Positions 24,337 through 40,303 of a stretch of 64,000 nucleotides of DNA are shown here, piece by piece. The position numbers were made by a program, and so were the translations under genes. A model generated the notes under the pieces. The model was not told where the DNA came from. It searched no databases and was given only the letters and a program-made list of their open reading frames with translations. The stretch's first letter is position 1. Every line of letters starts with the position of its first letter. Origin of the DNA: Archangium primigenium (GTDB taxonomy: Bacteria > Myxococcota > Myxococcia > Myxococcales > Myxococcaceae); contig NZ_JADWYI010000001.1 of NCBI RefSeq assembly GCF_016904885.1, positions 8,675,224-8,739,223 on the forward strand. Direction: 5' to 3'.

Positions 24337-25317
24337 ATGTCCATCTCGTCCCTGTCGAACAGCAACGCCGCCTTCCGCATCCCCCAGCAGAACATCGAGT
24401 CCGCGGTGAGCGAGGCGCGGCCCACGTCCATCCAGGCCGGTGGCTGCTGCCCGGGCCAGACGAGCCCGGCGAGCAACCCCCTGGGCGACCTGTTCAAGGA
24501 CAGCTTCGGCGGCGCGGAGAAGGGCGGCGGTCTCCAGCAGTTCCTCGAGGGCGCCAAGCAGCTCGTCGAGACGCTCAACCAGCTCAAGGATCTGCTGGAG
24601 GGGGGCGTGCCCGAGCTCGGCGATGACGCGGCGGCCGGTGGCCTGGATGCGGCGGGCGGCGCGGCAGGTGGCGCGGCGGGTGGCGCGGCGGCTCCGGCTC
24701 CGGCTCCGGTGGGCGGCGCGGGTGGCGCGGCGGCTCCGGCCCCGGTGGGTGGCGCGGCGGCTCCGGCTCCGGTGGGTGGCGCGGGCGCGGCGGGCGGCGC
24801 GAGCAACGGCGTGAGCTCGGGCGGTGGCTCGGGTGACGCGAAGCTCGGCCCCGGCTTCCCCAAGCAGCTGGATCAGTTCAAGGGCGCCATCGAGTCCGCG
24901 GCGGCCAAGGCGGGCGTGCCGGCCAACATGCTGGCCGGGCAGATCTGGCAGGAGTCGCGCGGCAACATCGAGGCCATCACCACCAACGGTGGCAACGGCC
25001 TGTCGGACACGGGCCTGATGCAGGTCAACCCCAACACCTTCGGTGAGCTGCAGGCCAAGCACCCGGAGCTCCAGGGCAAGAACCTGGCGGATCCCGAGAC
25101 CAACATCCTCGCGGGCGCCTTCTACATGAAGGACATGAACGAGCAGTTCGGCGGCAACTGGGACCTGGCGCTGCGCGGCTACAACTCGGGCCCCAACGGC
25201 GTGGACCGCAACGACCCGCGCGCGCTGCCGGCCGGCACGGGCGACGCCACCTACGTGGACAAGGTGAACAGCTTCTGGAAGACGATCGAGTCCGGCAACG
25301 GCACCCTGCCCGCCTAG
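24337..25317 (+). CDS. Lytic transglycosylase (SLT domain) without Sec signal
   Basis: This is a 326-aa protein. Residues 1-100 are polar with a CC pair (GGCCPG) and a helix (FLEGAKQLVETLNQLKDLLE). Residues about 105-165 are a Gly/Ala/Pro linker made of short repeats (AAPAPVGG units). The C-terminal 160 residues are an SLT lysozyme-like domain with catalytic E206 in QESRG, GLMQVNP, and a final ALRGYNSGPNGV. It should cleave peptidoglycan glycan strands. There is no signal peptide. It is preceded by a strong sigma-54-like promoter. It may act in predation or cell-wall remodelling (inference). Confidence 0.9.
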   Translation: MSISSLSNSNAAFRIPQQNIESAVSEARPTSIQAGGCCPGQTSPASNPLGDLFKDSFGGAEKGGGLQQFLEGAKQLVETLNQLKDLLEGGVPELGDDAAAGGLDAAGGAAGGAAGGAAAPAPAPVGGAGGAAAPAPVGGAAAPAPVGGAGAAGGASNGVSSGGGSGDAKLGPGFPKQLDQFKGAIESAAAKAGVPANMLAGQIWQESRGNIEAITTNGGNGLSDTGLMQVNPNTFGELQAKHPELQGKNLADPETNILAGAFYMKDMNEQFGGNWDLALRGYNSGPNGVDRNDPRALPAGTGDATYVDKVNSFWKTIESGNGTLPA

Positions 25318-26102: not shown

Positions 26103-27581
26103 ATGCCGTCTCGTTCCCGGGCCCGTAGCGCCACCCGTCGTCTGAACGCCCTCCACGCCACCCGCCCCTCCCGGCGCGTCAAGGTCCAACAGGATCTCAC
26201 CGAACCGGAGCAGGGCCCGCCGCTCGTGCCGGATCACATCCCCGTGCGCGCCGAGCGCAAGCGGCAGGGGCGGATCCTCCGCGACAAGTTTCCCCGCGAG
26301 ACCCATGCCCAGTGGAAGGCGGGCCGCGAGCGGACGGATCCCATCGCCCTGCTGGAGGCGTCCAACGTGGGACGGCTCGGCTCGCTCGTGCCCATCCGCC
26401 ATGCGCGCATGAGCGTGGACCCCTTCAGCTTCCTGCGCGGCTCGGCCGTCATCATGGCCAACGACCTGGCCACCACGCCCACGGTGGGCATCAAGGTCCA
26501 GGCCTGTGGGGACGCGCACCTGGCCAACTTCGGCATGTTCGCGACGCCCGAGCGCAACCTCGTCTTCGACCTGAACGACTTCGACGAGACGCTGCCCGCG
26601 CCGTGGGAGTGGGACCTCAAGCGCCTGGTCGCCAGCGTGTGGGTGGCGGGCCGGGCCCATGGCGACTCCGAGTCCCAGTGCGAGGCGGCGGTGGAGGCGT
26701 GCGCGCGCGAGTACCGGCGGTGGATGAACACCCTGTCGCACTGGAGCTTCCTGGACGTGTGGTACGCGCGGGTGGACGCCGAGGAATTGCGCGACACGCT
26801 CTACAAGCACGAGGGCGCGAGCGCGGAGAAGACACTCGCCCAGGCGCGCCGGCGCACCCAACTGGCCACCCTGCCCAAGCTCACCGAGCTGCGCGAGGGC
26901 CGCCGCTGCATCATCGACGACCCGCCCCTGGTGGCGCACACCCGGCGCGACGACGCGGAGCTGCTCGCCGAGGTGCTCCAGGTCATGGGGGACGGCTACC
27001 TGTCCACGCTCTCCGGGGAGCGCAGCACGCTGGTGCGGCGCTACACGATGGTGGACGTGGCCCGCAAGGTGGTGGGCGTGGGCAGCGTGGGCACGCGCTG
27101 CTACCTGGCGCTGCTCCTGGGCGCGCACGCGGAGGACCCGCTCTTCCTCCAGGTGAAGGAGGCCAACGCCTCGGTGCTCGAGCCCTTCGCGGGCAAGACG
27201 GCGTACACCAACGCCGGTCAGCGCGTGGTGGAGGGGCAGCGCTTCATGCAGGCCGCGTGCGACATCTTCCTCGGCTGGTGCCGCGTGGGCGGACGGGACT
27301 TCTACGTGCGGCAGCTCCGGGACATGAAGGGCTCCACGGACGTGGAGCGGCTGTCGCCCCGGGGCTTGCGCCAGTACGCCGCCCTGTGTGGGCGCACGCT
27401 CGCCCGCGCCCACGCCCGGGGAGGCGATGCCGCCGTGCTGCGGGGCTACCTCGGACGCAGCGAGACATTCGACCGCGCGCTGTGTGCGTTCGCCCGGGCC
27501 TACGCGGACCAGACCGAGCGCGACTACGGCCTGTTCCAGAAGGCCATCCGCTCGGGCCGCCTGGCGGTGGAGAAGGAATAG
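26103..27581 (+). CDS. DUF2252 family protein
   Basis: This 492-aa protein has the hallmark DUF2252 motifs: RMSVDPFSFLRGSA, then GDAHLANFG, then DLNDFDETLPAPWEWDLKRLV. These resemble the catalytic and metal-binding loops of aminoglycoside-phosphotransferase/kinase-like folds, so a phosphotransferase is possible, but no activity is known to me. The N-terminus is basic (MPSRSRARSATRRLN). No convincing ribosome site precedes the ATG, so the true start may be slightly downstream. It is followed 125 bp later by the cold-shock gene on the same strand. Confidence 0.88.
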   Translation: MPSRSRARSATRRLNALHATRPSRRVKVQQDLTEPEQGPPLVPDHIPVRAERKRQGRILRDKFPRETHAQWKAGRERTDPIALLEASNVGRLGSLVPIRHARMSVDPFSFLRGSAVIMANDLATTPTVGIKVQACGDAHLANFGMFATPERNLVFDLNDFDETLPAPWEWDLKRLVASVWVAGRAHGDSESQCEAAVEACAREYRRWMNTLSHWSFLDVWYARVDAEELRDTLYKHEGASAEKTLAQARRRTQLATLPKLTELREGRRCIIDDPPLVAHTRRDDAELLAEVLQVMGDGYLSTLSGERSTLVRRYTMVDVARKVVGVGSVGTRCYLALLLGAHAEDPLFLQVKEANASVLEPFAGKTAYTNAGQRVVEGQRFMQAACDIFLGWCRVGGRDFYVRQLRDMKGSTDVERLSPRGLRQYAALCGRTLARAHARGGDAAVLRGYLGRSETFDRALCAFARAYADQTERDYGLFQKAIRSGRLAVEKE

Positions 27582-27986: not shown

Positions 27987-29105
27987 TCAGCGGGCGGCGG
28001 CCGCCACGGCCACCGAGGCCCAGACGGCGCGCGGCAGGGGGTGGAGTCCCGGCGCCTGGCGCTCGCCCTCGGTGAAGAGGAAGCCGAGCCCGGCCAGCAG
28101 CGTGGCCAGCGTCACGTCGAAGGCGTTGAGGCTGTCCCCCCAGCCCGCCGTGAGGTTGGCCATGGAGCCCCCGGCGAACAGGTAGAGGGGCCGGCCCCGC
28201 GGTGACACCTCCTCCACGTGGGGAAGCAGCTCGCGCCGCGGCCCCAACGCCGCCACGTCGAGCTCGTCCGCCACGTGGCCCACGTTGAGCAGGAAGCAGC
28301 CCGCGCGCAGGTGGGCCAGTTCTGGCGCACCGATGACCCGCGCGGCGCCCGTCGCCGTGACGATCACCTCCGCGCGCGCGAGCCGCTCGGGGGTCAGCGG
28401 CCCCGCGTCCCAACCCGCGTAGCGCGCCTCCAGCAGCCGCGCCGCGTCCCGCTCGGCCACCTCCACCGTCGCGCCGAAGGCCCGCGCCACGTCCGCCACC
28501 CCCTGCCCCACCCGCCCATGGCCCACCACCAGCACCCGCTTGCCGTGCAGGGACAGGTGCGTGCGCTCACAGAAGGCCAGCCAAGTGGTGAGCCCCACCA
28601 GCCAGCGGTTGTGCAGCCCTTCCTTGATGGGCAGGTCGTCCCAGTTGAAGACCGGGTAGCGCGGGGACAGCGCGCGCAGCCGGGCGATGCCCGAGCCCGT
28701 GGCCTCCAGGCTCCCGCGCACCGCGGGCCCGCCCTCGCGCGCGTGCAGCGCCCCGGAGAGGTCCGCGCCCATCTCGCACAGGTGCGTGGGGCCCCAGGCG
28801 AGCGCCCGCGCGGTGCCCTCGGCCAGCGCCTCCGGGGACATGTCCTTCCACGCATGGGCCTCGGCGCCGCGCGCGCGCAACCACGCCACCACCTCGTCGC
28901 GCACCGTGGTGGCGTTGCACGTGGTGAGGAACACCGCCGCGCCCTTGTCGAGCAAGGCCTCCACGGCGGGGATCATCTTGAGGTCCAGGTGCATGGAGCA
29001 CGCGAGCCGGATGCCCTTCAGGTCCGGCAGCGCCTCGCCCCCGGCGCGCGTCAGGGGCATGTGCAGCCGCGCCCACGCCAGCTCTCGTGCGAACACATCC
29101 ATCAT
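27987..29105 (-). CDS. Diverged S-adenosylhomocysteinase-like protein
   Basis: This protein is about 372 aa, shorter than true SAH hydrolases (about 430-475). It keeps the fold landmarks: CSMHLDLK (equivalent of SMHM), a CNATTVRDE segment, the NAD-binding loop GHGRVGQGVADVARAFGA, and NVGHVADELDV. By hand alignment several catalytic residues of SAH hydrolase are changed: the Asp-Asp-Gly-Gly-Asp loop is EMGAD, SEETTTG is LEATGSG, and the KxxxD pair becomes KEGLH. The C-terminal Lys/Tyr lobe that contacts NAD is absent. It may be a pseudoenzyme or have a new substrate. The start is uncertain (29105 or 29102; a GTG further up is also possible). Confidence 0.75.
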   Translation of the reverse strand: MMDVFARELAWARLHMPLTRAGGEALPDLKGIRLACSMHLDLKMIPAVEALLDKGAAVFLTTCNATTVRDEVVAWLRARGAEAHAWKDMSPEALAEGTARALAWGPTHLCEMGADLSGALHAREGGPAVRGSLEATGSGIARLRALSPRYPVFNWDDLPIKEGLHNRWLVGLTTWLAFCERTHLSLHGKRVLVVGHGRVGQGVADVARAFGATVEVAERDAARLLEARYAGWDAGPLTPERLARAEVIVTATGAARVIGAPELAHLRAGCFLLNVGHVADELDVAALGPRRELLPHVEEVSPRGRPLYLFAGGSMANLTAGWGDSLNAFDVTLATLLAGLGFLFTEGERQAPGLHPLPRAVWASVAVAAAAR

Positions 29106-29171: not shown

Positions 29172-30239
29172 ATGAGAGCCGATGCGTTCGAGGGGGCGCT
29201 GCTGGGAACGGTCGTGGGCGACGCGCTGGGGCTGCCCCGCGAGGGCCTGTCCCACCGGCGCGCCCTGCGCATGTTCGGCCCGGCCCCGCTGCACCACCGC
29301 TTCCTGCTCGGCCGGGGCGTGGGCAGCGACGACACCGAGCATGCGTGCATGGTCGGCCAGGCCCTGCTCGCCGCGCCCGAGGCCCCCGAGCGCTTCGCCC
29401 GGAGCCTCGCGTGGCGGCTGCGCGGCTGGCTGCTCGGGCTGCCCGCCGGGGTGGGCTGGGCCACGCTGCGCGCCACGGTGAAGCTCTGGCTCGGCTTTTC
29501 CCCCCAGCACAGCGGGGTGGTGTCCGCGGGCAATGGTCCGGCCATGCGCGCGCCCCTCCTCGGGGTGTGCTTCGCCGAGCAGCCGGAGCGGCTGGCGGCC
29601 TTCGTGCGGGCCTCGAGCCGGCTCACCCACCGGGATGCCCGCGCCGAGCAGGGCGCCCTGGCGGTGGCGCTGGCGGCGGCCCATGGCGCCCGGCGCGGAC
29701 CCGCGGGCGTGGACGCGGAGGAGGTGATGCGCGAGTGGGCGGCCCATGTCGACGAGCCGCTCCTGCGCGAGGCATTCGCCTGCCTCCGCGCGGCCTGGGA
29801 GCGCGGGGCGAGCGTGGCGGCGTTCGCCGAGGACTTGGGGCTCGGAGACGGCGTGAGCGGCTACGTCCTGCACACCGTGCCGGTGGTGCTCTACGCCTGG
29901 CTGCGGCACGCCACGGACTTCCGGCGGGCGGTGGAGGAAACCATCCTGCTCGGCGGGGACAGCGACACCACGGGCGCCATCGTCGGAGCGCTCATGGGCG
30001 CCACGCTCGGTCCGGGCGCCATCCCCGCCGAGTGGCTCGCGCCCATCGCCGAGTGGCCCCGCTCCGTGGCGTGGATGCGGCGGCTCGGGGGACGGCTCGC
30101 CGCGCGCTTCGCGGGCCCCGCCACGGACACGTCCCCGGGCGCCCTGCCCCTGTTCTGGCCGGCGCTCGTGCCGCGCAACCTGCTCGTGCTCGTCGTGGTG
30201 CTGGGCCACGGGTTCCGGCGGCTCCTGCCTCCGTACTGA
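29172..30239 (+). CDS. ADP-ribosylglycohydrolase (DraG/ARH) family protein
   Basis: This 355-aa protein has the family signatures in order: EGALLGTVVGDALGLP at the N-terminus, GSDDTEH for the first metal-binding Asp pair, and LGGDSDTTGAIVGALMGA near residue 260 for the second. It should bind two Mg ions and remove ADP-ribose from proteins or small molecules, as in DraG. The C-terminus has a hydrophobic stretch (LLVLVVVLGHGF) that could attach to membrane. It starts 66 nt from the divergent SAH-hydrolase-like gene. Confidence 0.9.
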   Translation: MRADAFEGALLGTVVGDALGLPREGLSHRRALRMFGPAPLHHRFLLGRGVGSDDTEHACMVGQALLAAPEAPERFARSLAWRLRGWLLGLPAGVGWATLRATVKLWLGFSPQHSGVVSAGNGPAMRAPLLGVCFAEQPERLAAFVRASSRLTHRDARAEQGALAVALAAAHGARRGPAGVDAEEVMREWAAHVDEPLLREAFACLRAAWERGASVAAFAEDLGLGDGVSGYVLHTVPVVLYAWLRHATDFRRAVEETILLGGDSDTTGAIVGALMGATLGPGAIPAEWLAPIAEWPRSVAWMRRLGGRLAARFAGPATDTSPGALPLFWPALVPRNLLVLVVVLGHGFRRLLPPY

Positions 30240-33242: not shown

Positions 33243-33562
33243 CGCGCGCGCCTCATATCAGCAGGTCCGGAGCGCCGCCCATCCCCCCGGCCCCCGCGCC
33301 CCTCCGGGGGCGTTGTGGGGCGTGGCGTTTCGCCCCGGGGGGCGTTTCGCGCCACTCGCGGAGGGCGGCCCGGCGGCCTGAATTCCATGCATTGCCGAGT
33401 GTTCGGGGCGCGTTTTTCGGGATTGCAAGCGGAATCGACCGGGAATTCGCGGCCCCTGGGAGCACTGGCGTAGGATCGACAGTCGCAACCCCCCTGGCGT
33501 CGACATTGCAGCAGCGCGCTCCGCCTTCTTTTTTCCACTCCCTCTTGAACCCCGTGGACTTC
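33243..33562. other. 320-bp intergenic region before the giant surface-protein gene
   Basis: No convincing gene is present on either strand. It contains G-rich inverted segments (about 33296-33350), an AT-richer part from 33370 on, a sigma-54-like site at 33495-33510 and a pyrimidine-rich tract (33515-33545) just ahead of the start. Confidence 0.5.
33495..33510 (+). promoter_or_regulatory. Possible sigma-54 promoter of the giant surface-protein gene
   Basis: TGGCGTCGACATTGCA keeps the TGG and TTGCA elements with exactly 10 nt between the GG and GC doublets. It differs from consensus at the AC/G positions. Transcription would begin near 33522, about 40 nt before the ATG at 33563. Confidence 0.4.
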
Positions 33563-36500
33563 ATGAGAAATCCCGACCCCTCGCCGCCCCCCTCATCCGG
33601 TGCAGGTCGCGCGATGCGCTCGAGCATCCCGGCGCTGCTGATCGCCGTCGCGATGAGCCTCACCTCGGGCGCCGTCCAGGCCCAGCCCGTGAGCAACGCG
33701 CCGCCCAAGCTGCGCTACGCCGAGGACCTGCGCGGCAACTTCGCGCTCGTCGGCAATACGCTCGCGCAGGACTGCCGCAAGACGACGCCCTTGCCCATCA
33801 CCGGCCGCATGCCGCCGGTGGAAACGTTCGTGCCGGGCGATCCGGCCTGCTACCAGCGCGACACGTCCCCGGACTTCTTCTGGACGTTGAATGACCCGGC
33901 CATGGAGACCACGGGGGCCACCACCCAGCCCGCCGCGCCCATCACCACCTCGAGCAAGGGCATCAACCCGCTGACGGCCTCGAGCCAGGCGGCGCTGTCG
34001 CTGCCCACGGGCGCCACGGTGGTCTACGCGCGGCTGTACTGGGCGGCCACCCGCTTCACCGCGGGCGCCGGCGACAAGGTCCAGGCGCCGGACCTCACCG
34101 CGCACCTGTCCCGGCCGGGCGTGGCCGGCTTCGAGATGGACCTCACCGCGGACGACTACGCCTTCCAGTACACGGCGGGCGGCGAGTACCAGTACCAGTC
34201 CACGGCGGACATCACCGACATCGTGAAGAACTACGGCGCGGGCCGCTATCAGATCAGCGACGTGCTGGCGGTGTCGTTGGACACCAGCGCGGGCGGCGGC
34301 GAGTACATCTTCGACGGCTGGTGGATGGCGGTGTTCTACGAGGTGCCGGGCGCCACCAAGCGCCACCTCAAGCTCTTCGACAGCATGCGCATCGTGGATG
34401 GGGCGCCGGGCACGTCCTTCACCCTGAGCGGCTTCTACGTGCCCACGTACGCGGTGGACGCCAAGCTGGGCGTCATCGCCTTCGAGGGCGACGACCCCGC
34501 GCCGGACATCAACGACACGTTCTCCTTCAACGGGAAGATCGTCAGCAACGACCTCAACCCGCCCAACAACTTCTTCAACAGCACGCGCTCGTGGAGCACC
34601 ACGAAGACGGGCGTGACCACGGACACGCCGCTGACCGGCCTGGACCCGGGCTCCGACGGCAAGTTCGATTCCTACCCCATCAGCAACCGCAACGACCGGC
34701 CGCAGCTCACCGGCACGCCGGGCAGCATGTCCGGCATCGACCTGGACGTGGTGGACGTCACGGTGGCCGCGGGCGACCACACCGCCACGGCGCTCGCCAA
34801 CACCTCGGGTGACCGCTTCTGGCTCGCGGGCTTCATCACCTCCATCACCACCCAGGCGCCCGACTTCACCAACACCCTCAAGACGGCCGAGAACCTCACG
34901 CGCAAGGACGGCACGGTGCGTCCGGGCGACCGCATCCGCTACACCATCACCACGCAGAACACGGGCGATGACCACTCCAAGGACACGGTGGTCAACGACA
35001 AGCTGCCCCCCCAGCTGGACTACGAGGCGGACTCGCTCGAGCTGCTCAGCGTGGCGCCCGGCGACAGCACACCGCTCGGCCAGCTCACCGACGCCAAGGG
35101 CGACGACGTGGGCCACTACGACACGGCCACGCGCACCATCACCGTGTACCTGGGCAAGGGCGCCACGCCCACCCGCGGCGGCACGCTCCGGGGCATCATC
35201 CAGCCGGGTGACGTGGGCGAGAGCACCAGCCTCACCTTCGTCGCGATCGTGAAGTCCGGCGTCTCGGGCATCGTCGAGAACCAGGCCATCATCACCGCCG
35301 GCGGCATGCTCGGCATCGATCCGGTGGACACGCCCTCGCAGAGCCCGGAGGGCTCGGGCCCCACCGACTTCGAGGTCGCCGAGGTTCCCCGGCCCGTCAT
35401 CAAGGTGCCGGCCAACGGCGCGCTCATCAACAACAAGCGCCCCGTGTACTCGGGCACCGCGCGGCCGGGCTACACGGTCATCGTGAAGGTGGATGGCACC
35501 GACCTGTGCACCACCACCGCCGACGCGGCGGGCAACTGGTCCTGCCCCACCCCCACGGGCCGCGCCGACCTGGCCCAGGGCGCCCACAATGTCACCGCCC
35601 AGGCGCGCAACGCCGCCGGTGTGACGAGCGACATCGTGCGCAACGACTTCACGGTGGACGCCATCGCCCCCTCGCCGCCCGTCATCACCGCGCCCACCTC
35701 GGGCCAGGTGTTCGACAAAACCCAGCGCCCCACCTTCGAGGGCACCGCCGAGCCCAACGCCCTGGTCACCGTGAGCGTGGACGGCCGGGTCATCGGCCGC
35801 ATCCGCGCCGACAGCTCGGGCAACTGGTTCCTCATCGCCCCCACGGCGCTGGCCGACGGCCCGCACACCGTGGGCGCCACGGCCAAGGACGCCGCGGGCA
35901 ACGAGAGCACCGCCACGAGCGTGCCCTTCAGCATCAGCGTCAACCCGCCCGACACGAAGATCACCAAGAACCCGCCGGCCAAGACGCTCGACCGCACGGC
36001 CACCTTCGAGTACGAGGGCATCCCGTCCGGTGGCATCCAGAGCTTCGAGTGCAGCCTGAATGGCGTCACCTTCACCACCTGCACCCCGACGCTCGTGTAC
36101 ACGAAGACGTACACGGACCTGCCGGATGGTCGGCACACCTTCCGCGTGCGCGCCCGCAACTACTCGGGCTTCGTGGACACCACGCCCGCCACCTACACGT
36201 GGCTCGTGGGCCTCGACAGCGACAACGACGGCATCCCCGACAGCATCGAGACCGCCACGGGCACCAACCCGAACGACGATGACACGGACGATGACGGCAT
36301 CCTCGATGGCAACGAGGACACGAACGCCAACGGCGTCGTGGACGGCGGCGAGACGGACCCCCGCCTCAAGGACACCGACGGGGACGGCATCCAGGACGGC
36401 ACCGAGATGGGCCTGACCGCGCCCCAGGGCACGGGCACCAACCTCGCCGTCTTCATCGCCGACCAGGATCCCTCCACCACCACGCTGCCGCTGGACGCCG

Positions 36501-39500
36501 ACACCGACAACGGCGGCGTGCCCGATGGCATCGAGGACCTCAATCACAACGGCCGCATCGACTCGGGCGAGACCGACCCGAACAACCCCGCGGACGACCT
36601 GACCGACAGCGACAACGACGGCATCCCCGACAGCGTCGAGATCGCCACGGGCACCAACCCGAACGACGATGACTCGGATGACGACGGCATCAAGGACGGC
36701 AACGAGGACAAGAACCACGACGGCAAGGTGGACGCGGACGAGACCGACCCGCGCAAGCGTGACACCGACGGCGACGGCCTCCAGGACGGCACCGAGCTGG
36801 GCCTGACCGCGCCCCAGGGCACGGGCACCAACCCCGCCGTCTTCATCGCCGACCTGGACCCCTCCACCACCACCAACCCGCTCGACCGCGACACCGACAA
36901 GGGTGGCGTGTGGGACGGCGTCGAGGACAAGAACCACAACGGCCGCATCGACGCGGGCGAGATCGACCCGAACAATCCCGCGGATGACGGCCTGATCGAC
37001 AGCGACGGCGACGGCCTGCCCGACGTCATCGAGAACGCCAACGGCACCGACCCGAACGACGACGACTCGGACGACGACGGCATCAAGGACGGCAACGAGG
37101 ACAAGAACCACGACGGCAAGGTGGACGCGGACGAGACCGACCCGCGCAACCGTGACACCGACGGCGACGGCATCCAGGACGGCACCGAGATTGGCCTGAC
37201 CGCGCCCCAGGGCACGGGCACCAACCCCGCCCTCTTCATCGCCGACCTGGACCCCTCGACCAAGACCAACCCGCTCGACAAGGACACCGACAAGGGTGGC
37301 GTGTGGGACGGCGTCGAGGACAAGAACCACAACGGCCGCATCGACGCGGGCGAGACCAACCCGAACAACGCCGCGGACGACGTGACGGTCGACAGCGATG
37401 GCGATGGCCTGCCCGACGTCATCGAGAACGCCAACGGCACGGATCCGAACGACGACGACTCGGACGACGACGGCATCAAGGACGGCAACGAGGACAAGAA
37501 CCACGACGGCAAGGTGGACGCGGGCGAGACCGATCCGCGCAACCGTGACACCGACGGCGACGGCATCCAGGACGGCACCGAGCTGGGCCTGAGCGCGCCC
37601 CAGGGCACGGGCACCAACCCCGCCCTCTTCGTCGCCGACCAGGACCCCTCCACCAAGACCAACCCGCTCGACAAGGACACCGACAAGGGTGGCGTGTGGG
37701 ACGGCGCCGAGGACCTGAACCACAACGGCCGCATCGACGCGGGCGAGACGGATCCCAACAACCCCGCGGATGACGACCCCACCAAGGACTCCGACGGCGA
37801 TGGCATCCCCGACGCCACCGAGGTCGCCAACGGCACCAACCCGAGCAGCGACGACACGGACAACGACGGCATCACCGACGGCAACGAGGACAAGAACCAC
37901 GACGGCAAGGTGGACCCGGGCGAGACGGATCCGCGCAAGCCCGACACCGACGGCGATGGCATCCAGGACGGCACCGAGATTGGCCTGACCGCGCCCCAGG
38001 GCACGGGCACCGACCTGTCCGTCTTCGTCCCCGACCAGGACCCCTCCACCCAGACCAACCCGCTGGATCCGGACACCGACAAGGGCGGCGTGCCGGACGG
38101 TGGCGAGGACCGGAACCACAACGGCCGCATCGACGCGGGCGAGACGGATCCCAACAACCCCGCGGACGATCAGCCCACCCCCGGTGGCGGCGTGGACTCG
38201 GACGGCGATGGCATCCCGGACAGCGTGGAGATCGCCAACGGCACGGATCCGAACAACGCGGACACCGACGGCGACGGCCTCAAGGACGGCGAGGAGGACA
38301 AGAACCAGAACGGCAAGGTGGACCCGGGTGAGAGCGATCCGCTCAAGGCCGACACCGACGGCGGCGGCGTGAACGACTACGACGAGGTGAAGAGCGGCAC
38401 CAACCCGCTGGATGGCCGCGACGACTACCTCATCGGTGGCCGGGGCTGCAGCAGCTCGGGCGGCGCTCCGCTCGCGTGGCTCACCACGGCGCTGCTCGCC
38501 GCGCCCTGGCTGCGCTCGCGGCGCTCCTCGCTCCGGGGGGCGCTGGCCAAGGGGGGCCTGCTCGGTCTCATGGGCGTGCTCGCGGCTCCGACCGCGCACG
38601 CCCAGGTGACGGCGGCACCCCTGTCCGAGTCCATCGACGCACAGCGCTACAAGCCCGGCCCGGGCATCAACGACATCCTGGGCGTGCACGGCGCCCGGGT
38701 GGGCCAGCACCTGGGATGGCACCTCGGGGCGTCGATCAACTACGCGAGCAACCCCCTGGGCATCTTCAACCCTCGCACGGACACCTTCGTCCACGAGATC
38801 GTGTCGGACCAGGCGACGCTCGACCTGATGGGCTCGCTGTCGCTGTGGGAGCGCTTCGAGCTGGGGGTGGCGGTGCCGCTCACCTACCAGGCCGGGCAGG
38901 CGGCCACCTCCGGCACGCCCTTCGCCACCGGGACGACGGGCTCGGGGCTCGGGGATTTGAGGCTCGTGCCCAAGGCGCACCTGGTGTCCGCGGGCGCCTT
39001 CGGCCTGGGCCTCGTGGTGCCCATCCACCTGCCCACCGCGGGAGGCGCGGACTACCGCGGCGGCGCGAGTGTCAGCGCCCGTCCCCAGCTCATCGCCGAG
39101 TGGGGGCGGGAGCCCGCGGGCTTCCGACTGGTGGCCAACCTGGGCGCCAACGTCCAGCGGGCCGCGCAGCTGCGCAACCTCGATGCGGGCACCGAGCTGA
39201 TGTACGCGCTGGGCGCCCAGCTGCCCTTCACCCAGAAGCTGGCGCTCCGGGCCAACCTGGCGGGCGCGTTCGCGCTCGGCGACAACGACTTCTCGGGGCG
39301 GCCCCTCGAGGTGCTCGCGGCGCTGCAGTACCGCTTCAATCCCGGACTGGCGGCCCACATCGGCGGCGGCCCGGGCATCACCCGCGGCTACGGCACGCCG
39401 GGCTTCCGCGTCTTCGCGGGGCTCGACTGGGGCAGGCCGGAGGGTGAGCCGGCCCGGGCCGAGACCACGCCGACTCCCGCGCCCGCGCCGGTCCCCGCCG

Positions 39501-40303
39501 GGCCGGTGGACTCGGACGGCGACGGCATCCCGGACGTGAAGGACAAGTGCCCCACGCAGCCCGAGGACAAGGACGGCTTCCAGGACGAGGACGGCTGCCC
39601 GGATCCGGACAACGACAAGGACGGCATCCCGGACACCAAGGACAAGTGCCCGCTGCAGCCCGAGACGGTCAACGGCTACCAGGACGAGGATGGGTGCCCG
39701 GACGAGGATCCCAACAAGGACTCGGACGGGGACGGCATCCCGGACGTGAAGGACAAGTGCCCGCTGGTGGCCGAGGACAAGGACGGCTTCCAGGACGAGG
39801 ACGGCTGCCCGGATCCGGACAACGATCAGGACGGCATCCCGGACGCGCAGGACCAGTGCCCGAACGAGCCGGAGACCATCAACGGCGTGAAGGACGAGGA
39901 CGGCTGCCCGGACGAGGGCAAGTCCAAGGTGCGCCTGGAAGGCAACCGCATCGTCATCCTGGACAAGGTGTACTTCGCCACGGCCAAGGACGTGATCCTT
40001 CCCAAGTCGTTCAACCTGCTCAAGCAGGTGGGCTCGGTGCTCCGGGCCAACCCGCAGATCGAGTTGCTGCGCGTGGAGGGCCACACGGATGACCAGGGCA
40101 ATGACGCGAGTAACCTGAACCTGTCCAAGCGCCGCGCGGGCACGGTGCGCCAGTTCCTCATCAAGGAGGGCATCGCGGCCGAGCGGCTCGAGGCGGAGGG
40201 CTACGGCGAGACCCGCCCCGTGGACACCAACAAGACGGCGCTCGGCCGGGAGAACAACCGGCGCGTCGAGTTCAACATCCTGAAGCTGGCGGGCCAGCAG
40301 TAG
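33563..40303 (+). CDS. Giant surface protein: adhesin half with MYXO-CTERM-like segment fused to OmpA-domain half
   Basis: This is about 2,246 aa (2,229 if the ATG at 33614 is used). Order: signal peptide (IPALLIAVAMSLTSGAVQA); a beta-rich domain to residue about 430; DUF11-like domain about 432-610; three Ig-like domains about 610-884; five thrombospondin-3-type tandem repeats of 130-136 aa plus a partial sixth, about 885-1620. Next is a MYXO-CTERM-like segment at 1629-1655: Gly-Cys-Ser, then a Leu/Ala-rich helix, then RSRRSS. A second signal-like stretch ends AHA before residue 1681. A barrel-like domain spans about 1681-1970, TSP3 repeats about 1983-2118, and a peptidoglycan-binding OmpA domain about 2120-2246 (VEGHTDDQGND, NNRRVEFNI). 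It looks like two envelope genes in one frame. Confidence 0.88.
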   Translation: MRNPDPSPPPSSGAGRAMRSSIPALLIAVAMSLTSGAVQAQPVSNAPPKLRYAEDLRGNFALVGNTLAQDCRKTTPLPITGRMPPVETFVPGDPACYQRDTSPDFFWTLNDPAMETTGATTQPAAPITTSSKGINPLTASSQAALSLPTGATVVYARLYWAATRFTAGAGDKVQAPDLTAHLSRPGVAGFEMDLTADDYAFQYTAGGEYQYQSTADITDIVKNYGAGRYQISDVLAVSLDTSAGGGEYIFDGWWMAVFYEVPGATKRHLKLFDSMRIVDGAPGTSFTLSGFYVPTYAVDAKLGVIAFEGDDPAPDINDTFSFNGKIVSNDLNPPNNFFNSTRSWSTTKTGVTTDTPLTGLDPGSDGKFDSYPISNRNDRPQLTGTPGSMSGIDLDVVDVTVAAGDHTATALANTSGDRFWLAGFITSITTQAPDFTNTLKTAENLTRKDGTVRPGDRIRYTITTQNTGDDHSKDTVVNDKLPPQLDYEADSLELLSVAPGDSTPLGQLTDAKGDDVGHYDTATRTITVYLGKGATPTRGGTLRGIIQPGDVGESTSLTFVAIVKSGVSGIVENQAIITAGGMLGIDPVDTPSQSPEGSGPTDFEVAEVPRPVIKVPANGALINNKRPVYSGTARPGYTVIVKVDGTDLCTTTADAAGNWSCPTPTGRADLAQGAHNVTAQARNAAGVTSDIVRNDFTVDAIAPSPPVITAPTSGQVFDKTQRPTFEGTAEPNALVTVSVDGRVIGRIRADSSGNWFLIAPTALADGPHTVGATAKDAAGNESTATSVPFSISVNPPDTKITKNPPAKTLDRTATFEYEGIPSGGIQSFECSLNGVTFTTCTPTLVYTKTYTDLPDGRHTFRVRARNYSGFVDTTPATYTWLVGLDSDNDGIPDSIETATGTNPNDDDTDDDGILDGNEDTNANGVVDGGETDPRLKDTDGDGIQDGTEMGLTAPQGTGTNLAVFIADQDPSTTTLPLDADTDNGGVPDGIEDLNHNGRIDSGETDPNNPADDLTDSDNDGIPDSVEIATGTNPNDDDSDDDGIKDGNEDKNHDGKVDADETDPRKRDTDGDGLQDGTELGLTAPQGTGTNPAVFIADLDPSTTTNPLDRDTDKGGVWDGVEDKNHNGRIDAGEIDPNNPADDGLIDSDGDGLPDVIENANGTDPNDDDSDDDGIKDGNEDKNHDGKVDADETDPRNRDTDGDGIQDGTEIGLTAPQGTGTNPALFIADLDPSTKTNPLDKDTDKGGVWDGVEDKNHNGRIDAGETNPNNAADDVTVDSDGDGLPDVIENANGTDPNDDDSDDDGIKDGNEDKNHDGKVDAGETDPRNRDTDGDGIQDGTELGLSAPQGTGTNPALFVADQDPSTKTNPLDKDTDKGGVWDGAEDLNHNGRIDAGETDPNNPADDDPTKDSDGDGIPDATEVANGTNPSSDDTDNDGITDGNEDKNHDGKVDPGETDPRKPDTDGDGIQDGTEIGLTAPQGTGTDLSVFVPDQDPSTQTNPLDPDTDKGGVPDGGEDRNHNGRIDAGETDPNNPADDQPTPGGGVDSDGDGIPDSVEIANGTDPNNADTDGDGLKDGEEDKNQNGKVDPGESDPLKADTDGGGVNDYDEVKSGTNPLDGRDDYLIGGRGCSSSGGAPLAWLTTALLAAPWLRSRRSSLRGALAKGGLLGLMGVLAAPTAHAQVTAAPLSESIDAQRYKPGPGINDILGVHGARVGQHLGWHLGASINYASNPLGIFNPRTDTFVHEIVSDQATLDLMGSLSLWERFELGVAVPLTYQAGQAATSGTPFATGTTGSGLGDLRLVPKAHLVSAGAFGLGLVVPIHLPTAGGADYRGGASVSARPQLIAEWGREPAGFRLVANLGANVQRAAQLRNLDAGTELMYALGAQLPFTQKLALRANLAGAFALGDNDFSGRPLEVLAALQYRFNPGLAAHIGGGPGITRGYGTPGFRVFAGLDWGRPEGEPARAETTPTPAPAPVPAGPVDSDGDGIPDVKDKCPTQPEDKDGFQDEDGCPDPDNDKDGIPDTKDKCPLQPETVNGYQDEDGCPDEDPNKDSDGDGIPDVKDKCPLVAEDKDGFQDEDGCPDPDNDQDGIPDAQDQCPNEPETINGVKDEDGCPDEGKSKVRLEGNRIVILDKVYFATAKDVILPKSFNLLKQVGSVLRANPQIELLRVEGHTDDQGNDASNLNLSKRRAGTVRQFLIKEGIAAERLEAEGYGETRPVDTNKTALGRENNRRVEFNILKLAGQQ
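36215..38424 (+). repeat. Tandem thrombospondin-3 coding repeats (about 393 bp period)
   Basis: Units begin with a D-S-D-x-D-G-x-P-D codon block at 36215, 36605, 36998, 37391, 37787 and 38195, so unit lengths are 390, 393, 393, 396 and 408 bp, all multiples of three. A sixth unit is partial. Each holds several Asp-rich calcium-binding TSP3 motifs, a GLTAPQGTGTN block and a NHNGRIDAGETDPNN block. DNA identity between units 2, 3 and 4 is very high, implying recent duplication or gene conversion. Confidence 0.92.

Follow-up and report, generated by a model that had tools for sequence, protein, structure and literature searches.

The gene found on the minus strand at positions 27987-29105 of the window, by which is meant the whole stretch of 64,000 nucleotides of Archangium primigenium DNA analysed here, raises the question of what a protein does when it keeps the fold of S-adenosylhomocysteine (SAH) hydrolases and has exchanged their catalytic residues. 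An earlier note on this DNA had left two answers side by side, a pseudoenzyme and a new NAD-dependent activity. The open reading frame, which has a second ATG at 29102, encodes a protein of 372 residues assigned by Pfam and alignment to the SAH-hydrolase fold and, within it, to what we call the HxDxK family. It matches PF00670 with 68.6 bits (gathering cut-off 27) and PF05221 with 30.5 bits (gathering cut-off 25), its NAD domain is also matched by the 2-hydroxyacid dehydrogenase model PF02826 (35.5 bits), and its best PDB sequence match is the Pyrococcus furiosus SAH hydrolase 7r37 (E = 1.5e-38). The structural comparison proposed in the earlier note returned the same fold: an AlphaFold model built from a 20-row alignment (pLDDT 91.0, pTM 0.80) is matched best by VIA-align to 7r3a (Z 44.1 over 369 residues, rmsd 2.9), the first eleven rows (Z 43.6-44.1) are archaeal, Thermotoga-type and cyanobacterial SAH hydrolases, and Foldseek likewise ranks SAH hydrolases first. 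The whole chain, beyond its Rossmann part, aligns with these enzymes. The protein nevertheless stays under the curated cut-off of all five NCBIfam adenosylhomocysteinase models listed, with scores of 188.1 bits against 275, 162.3 against 497.6, 134.7 against 512, 75.9 against 485 and 71.5 against 440. A canonical ahcY, whose presence elsewhere the earlier note had suggested checking, was found in the host genome (9.49 Mb in 3 contigs) at 5933519-5934898 of contig C1 with 491.8 bits, and the gene in the window is thus a second, divergent copy of the fold.

The departure from the canonical enzymes is concentrated in the substrate site. According to PMC4647836, the 2'-OH of the substrate is bound by Glu156 and Asp190, its 3'-OH by Thr157 and Lys186 and its 5'-OH by His55, Asp131 and His301; Asp131 is also the donor of the C4' proton, Lys186 acts in the 3'-keto step, and Leu54, Leu347, Met358 and Phe362 surround the adenine. 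These positions, numbered as in the human protein, were followed in an alignment of 73 rows comprising 23 of the family and 50 others; one of the latter is a gene in two pieces, leaving 49 non-family rows per position, which stand for 47 different genes since two loci were fetched twice. As the earlier note had read them, the residues aligned with Asp131, Glu156 and Asp190 are Met112 (28770..28772), Ala135 in E134-A135-T136 (28698..28706) and His165 in the segment FNWDDLPIKEGLHNR (28605..28649), all on the minus strand, as are the remaining sites. The second of these stretches retains Glu155 and Thr157 as Glu134 and Thr136, and the third retains Lys186 and Asn191 as Lys161 and Asn166 and has Asp156 for Asn181. 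His55 is kept as His39 in H39-L-D41-L-K43 (28977..28991), where Asp and Lys occupy the base-reading positions of Thr57 and Glu59, and the NVGH motif (28275..28286), likewise stated earlier to be conserved, keeps His301 as His277; the NAD domain is itself retained. In GDSLNAFD (28116..28139) Asp324 replaces His353 and Phe329 replaces Met358, and two further exchanges turn Asp130 into Glu111 and Thr158 into Gly137.

None of this is peculiar to the window protein. Asp131, Glu156 and Asp190 are kept in none of the 23 family rows, whereas all three are kept in 49 of 49 others. The first position holds Met in 17 rows and Phe in 6, the second Ala in 17 and Gly in 6, and the third is His in every row, as Asn181 is Asp, Glu59 is Lys, Thr158 is Gly and Asp130 is Glu (23/23 each); Thr57 is Asp in 22 rows and Glu in one, so that HxDxK is read in 22 and HxExK in the other, and Asp takes the place of His353 in all 22 rows with a residue there. 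In the non-family rows, Asn181, His353, Thr57, Thr158 and Asp130 are each kept 49 times out of 49, and position 59 is Glu in 37 and Gln in 12. One could suppose that the family is still made of ordinary SAH or S-inosylhomocysteine hydrolases in which Glu111, Asp156, His165 and Asp324 stand in for the lost residues, given that the family rows do show new acids and a His close by, that the fold is unchanged and that HxDxK resembles the motif of S-inosylhomocysteine enzymes. Set against this are the canonical ahcY already present in the host, the failure to reach any of the five NCBIfam cut-offs (188.1 of 275 bits at best) and the retention of the three acids in every row outside the family, and we regard such a substitution as improbable. 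That the HxDxK family is real and distinct is close to certain, and that it is not an SAH hydrolase is very probable.

A second possibility is that catalysis has been lost altogether and that the protein is a non-catalytic binder of NAD or of a nucleoside, used for sensing or regulation, as is known for animal SAH-hydrolase-like proteins. The loss of Asp131, Glu156 and Asp190 would be in keeping with this, and in AgmF, a NAD-dependent SAH-hydrolase homologue, replacing either of two of these residues by alanine (D129A, D188A) is described as abolishing activity (PMC8599513); their loss in the HxDxK family may equally mean that no such sugar chemistry takes place. The same 23 rows, on the other side, all keep His55, Glu155, Thr157, Lys186, Asn191 and His301, the hydride-transfer residues among them, and the residues that took over the other positions vary little or not at all, a pattern more in keeping with a new active site than with the loss of one; moreover, no regulatory partner recurs beside the gene in the loci compared. 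Judged from the altered site common to the 23 rows, the gene is not a decaying copy. The gene pairs are under purifying selection: from eight pairs run, dS was finite in six and saturated in two, and dN/dS was 0.33 between the window gene and its nearest orthologue (G004), a value that may be inflated, since dS is lowered where third positions are rich in GC; the five other pairs give 0.03-0.25, with dS above 3 in two of them. The pseudoenzyme put forward in the earlier note is therefore disfavoured, and we consider it quite unlikely, while its other proposal, a new NAD-dependent activity, gains support from the fixed altered site, the kept NAD and hydride-transfer residues and the purifying selection. 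The family is predicted, with good confidence, to be catalytic.

The earlier note had also pointed out that the C-terminal lobe, which contacts NAD in other enzymes, is missing. The absence is real: 22 family rows have 8-20 residues after the conserved LP motif and 49 others have 37 or 45, and the tail that ends the canonical copy of the host genome is absent from the window protein. Archaeal-type enzymes, which are active, lack the Lys426/Tyr430 contacts of the long C-terminus as well (PMC10978960), and for this reason the missing lobe tells little by itself. The tail of the HxDxK family is shorter than those of both compared types, archaeal and canonical.

The family, which we take to have arisen from the SAH hydrolase fold, forms a single clade in a tree of 52 rows (23 of the family, 21 canonical, 3 from the PDB and 5 plasmid-borne), with support of 100/100, a stem of 2.0 changes per site and unity in 100% of 200 bootstrap trees. 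The tree carries a warning of long-branch attraction and of unusual composition in five rows: it is unsure where L106, L108, L109 and L110 join, and which SAH hydrolase lies nearest to the family. Two of these rows, L108 6001-7011 (Photobacterium sp. DA100 plasmid) and L109 6001-6936 (Ensifer canadensis pT173e), are divergent SAH hydrolase paralogues on long branches outside the family, and by eye both show Glu in place of Asp190 and Asn in place of His353. Relatives within the family share 44-75% identity with the window protein in a 22-row alignment in which the active-site motifs are ungapped. The closest (G004, 75%) belongs to the same bacterial family as the window, and the others come from an Anaerolineae MAG, a deltaproteobacterial MAG, Reinekea, a Spirochaetes MAG, a Rubrobacter MAG and Klebsiella pneumoniae records, where the gene (54%) is annotated as adenosylhomocysteinase. 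Counting the centre genome each time, carriers amount to 2 of 96 genomes in the bacterial family of the window by identity (the next best protein has 33%), 2 of 195 in its phylum, with scores far off the rest (1e-196 vs 1e-68), 2 of 369 in the class to which Reinekea belongs and 9 of 196 in the family of G547; for the Rubrobacter MAG they are 4 of 346 in its phylum and 7 of 39 in its family, and for the Anaerolineae MAG 1 of 301 in its phylum. Such a rare and patchy distribution is as expected of a gene moved between lineages or often lost. Among mobile elements, 99 plasmid records match and 3 of the 20 listed exceed 50% identity (two Klebsiella, one Yersinia); phage records give 3 matches, each under 30% identity, one exact DNA-pattern scan of viral_contigs gives none, and the Klebsiella gene has no blastn match in E. 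coli genomes. One of the records titled as a Klebsiella pneumoniae plasmid (L057, CP125156.1) is 5.37 Mb long with fusA, sbcB and dacD and looks like a mislabelled chromosome, and in Yersinia frederiksenii (L058, NZ_MT039226.1, 83602-84694) a family copy is split over two frames with no gene listed there.

What reaction would such a site carry out? The reading that we favour, tentatively and at somewhat under even chances, is a working NAD-dependent enzyme predicted to oxidise carbon 3' of a nucleoside-like substrate within rebuilt 2' and C4' surroundings. Hydride would be taken from the sugar carbon 3' with the kept Lys161 and Thr136 and the bound NAD, and His39 and His277 would lie at the 5' side of the substrate. 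The holders of the 2'-OH (Glu156 and Asp190) and the residue that gives or takes the C4' proton (Asp131) are replaced, so that the sugar or its 2' substituent probably differs and the canonical 4',5'-elimination of homocysteine becomes unlikely. New acid-base chemistry may be supplied by His165 together with Asp156, or by the lengthened Glu111, and the likely product would be a 3'-keto nucleoside, or a compound derived from one by elimination or hydration. As to the base, the Lys of an HxExK motif is tied to hypoxanthine-containing substrates in archaeal enzymes (PMC10978960), and the Asp41/Lys43 pair, by its resemblance to that hypoxanthine-reading motif, suggests a 6-oxopurine, inosine- or guanosine-like. 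The likeness, it must be said, carries a motif across a long branch and with Asp replacing Glu. That the substrate is a nucleoside is predicted with about even confidence; that its base is a 6-oxopurine is a guess, rather more apt to be wrong than right. The most specific form of the proposal, in which a family widespread though rare and concealed by its adenosylhomocysteinase label carries out NAD-dependent 3'-oxidation, with or without elimination, of 6-oxopurine or 2'-modified nucleosides through the rebuilt His-Asp/Lys site, is speculative and on balance doubtful, and it is with the same reserve that we would speak of a reaction not yet described for the SAH hydrolase fold.

The surroundings of the base leave room for a different substrate. 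Leu347 is the sole base-pocket position kept (22/22 family rows), and Leu54 gives way to Met in 9 rows, Cys in 7, Thr in 6 and Val in 1, Met358 to Phe in 22 of 22 and Phe362 to Leu in 16 or Thr in 6, exchanges that on sequence grounds would be less favourable to a purine ligand. Together with the three replaced sugar-contact residues, the changed His353 position and the affinity of the NAD domain to the 2-hydroxyacid dehydrogenases of PF02826, they lend some weight to an enzyme that reuses the NAD domain and the Lys/His set on a hydroxy acid or another sugar. All 23 family rows retain the residues of the 3'-OH and of the 5' side, though, and the likeness to SAH hydrolases extends beyond the Rossmann part over the whole chain; a non-nucleoside substrate hence seems to us unlikely, without being far-fetched, and 3'-oxidation of a nucleoside-like substrate is retained as the working proposal.

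Another way to accommodate the family is as an alternative cleaver of SAH or S-ribosylhomocysteine that completes the methyl cycle in bacteria without AhcY and LuxS. Nine genomes, all in the family of G547, have the gene without canonical AhcY and without LuxS (G547, G1226, G1311, G1316, G1340, G1344, G1379, G1383 and G1400), and canonical AhcY is thus found in 0 of 9 carriers there against 59 of 187 other genomes (Fisher one-sided 0.037, two-sided 0.060, kinship uncorrected), a comparison that takes both searches as drawing the same 196 genomes, for which the handles shown agree. Nevertheless, 128 of the 187 non-carriers also show no AhcY, six genomes elsewhere (G000, G004, G195, G196, G197 and G198) combine the gene with a canonical-looking AhcY, the Klebsiella record W01, which carries the gene and no canonical AhcY, has a LuxS, and the 2'-OH ligands that a ribose would call for are gone. 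Among the seven carriers related to the Rubrobacter MAG at family level, weaker untyped PF05221 hits lie outside the family gene in six, and G837 has none. The anti-correlation is weak and confined to one bacterial family, which makes the replacement of AhcY a lead and not a case, and a role as methyl-cycle cleaver is very doubtful.

Among the genes nearby, the earlier note singled out an ADP-ribosylglycohydrolase, and the gene is indeed divergent from one at 29172-30239 on the plus strand (PF03747, 202.8 bits). The NAD-themed link drawn from this pairing did not survive comparison: tblastn finds the protein in 0 of 23 other loci, that of the nearest orthologue included, and the functional link was rejected. 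Among these loci, three are short (L079 3.8 kb, L082 6.3 kb and L104 6.2 kb) and one is the broken Yersinia copy. In the syntenic sister G004 (locus L078) the family gene still stands between USP and the binding protein, with the USP gene directly adjoining it and with neither ADP-ribosylglycohydrolase nor DUF2252; as far as the compared loci reach, the pairing is local to the host genome. Also in the window, a full-length DUF2252 protein (26103-27581, PF10009, 477.9 bits) lies downstream of the family gene and was not found in the 23 other loci, a transglycosylase SLT-domain ORF occupies 24337-25317, and an ORF of 2303 residues at 33392-40303 shows by eye many Asp-rich DxDxDG-type repeats and an OmpA-like end, overlapped by an antisense ORF of 2395 residues that is probably a GC-rich artefact.

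Outside the host, an association occurs in the family of the Rubrobacter MAG, where the gene is divergent from a PnrA-type (Bmp) binding protein and an ABC transporter in 4 of 7 loci (PnrA-type by Pfam in three and by similarity in the fourth), the contig ending within 400 bases of the start of the gene in the remaining three; one of these transporter operons runs on into an inosine-uridine nucleoside hydrolase. We count this in favour of a nucleoside-like substrate. The transporter link is confined to that family, and elsewhere no partner recurs among the compared loci. Across phyla there is no recurrent neighbour except an IlvD/Edd-type dehydratase gene (PF00920) adjoining the family gene in L079 and L080; it is convergent in L079, and the association was left as chance. 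SpoU-type methylase genes precede the family gene in L098-L101 (by Pfam in L098 and L101, by clustering in the other two), and an MltA-like gene comes before in L098. An ABC ATPase adjoins it in L074 and L097, the former also having a FecCD permease, a corrinoid adenosyltransferase, a periplasmic binding protein and a TonB receptor close by; these corrinoid-uptake-like neighbours we read as btuB/C/D/F, and in Klebsiella the family gene is convergent to cobT. Cobalamin as a shared theme was discarded all the same. Riboswitches for it do accompany the corrinoid-uptake-like genes (L097 5889-6023 and 2766-2979; L074 3022-3197), and one in L097 separates the family gene from the ATPase gene, so that it would govern the latter; at the Rfam gathering threshold a scan of 22 sources shows none upstream of the family gene, and the window contains none. 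In the sister loci L095 and L096 the gene is flanked by different genes.

If the proposed reading holds, the gene that Klebsiella records annotate as adenosylhomocysteinase, and that also occurs in the bacterial family of the window, in Reinekea, in a Rubrobacter MAG and in other genomes, bears the wrong name, and a second catalytic design with its own fixed residues exists within the SAH hydrolase fold. In that case a methyl cycle should not be inferred from an adenosylhomocysteinase annotation alone, and the family would offer a small, clean target for discovering a new reaction. No paper was tied to it by title or abstract in the literature searched, which was that outside subscription papers and preprints.

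In relation to known systems, the best sequence matches and some of the best structure matches are the archaeal-type SAH or S-inosylhomocysteine hydrolases (7r37 of P. furiosus, 7r3a of M. maripaludis and 5tov of T. maritima). With these enzymes the window protein shares the lack of a long C-terminal NAD-contact extension, a Lys at the base-reading position and the set Lys186, Thr157, His55 and His301; it differs from them in identity (26-30%) and in the positions of Asp131, Glu156, Asp190, Asn181 and His353, all changed, whereas 7r37, 5tov and 7r3a keep the DDG, EET and FDN motifs that the HxDxK family does not. Canonical AhcY (human 1li4, mouse 5axa) has the same fold, NAD domain and hydride-transfer residues as the family, and is set apart by 24-26% identity, the NCBIfam cut-offs and the tail missing in the window protein. 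The human SAH-hydrolase-like proteins, which are not known to have hydrolase activity, are divergent relatives met in the same searches (3mtg and 3gvp), and they are not specially close, with 199.8 and 196.9 bits against 254-276 for 7r37, 5tov, 3x2e, 7r3a and 7r39. A parallel in kind is AgmF, likened here through its published description as an SAH-hydrolase homologue running another NAD-dependent reaction, whose substrate, compound 2, we take to be angustmycin C. By that description, AgmF refuses SAH and dehydrates compound 2 to angustmycin A; it retains the key residues for catalysis and depends on His56, Asp129, Lys184, Asp188 and His299 (PMC8599513). The counterparts of its Asp129 and Asp188 in the window protein are Met112 and His165. 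AgmF is a precedent for a changed reaction within the fold, and the HxDxK family departs further, having replaced what AgmF kept.
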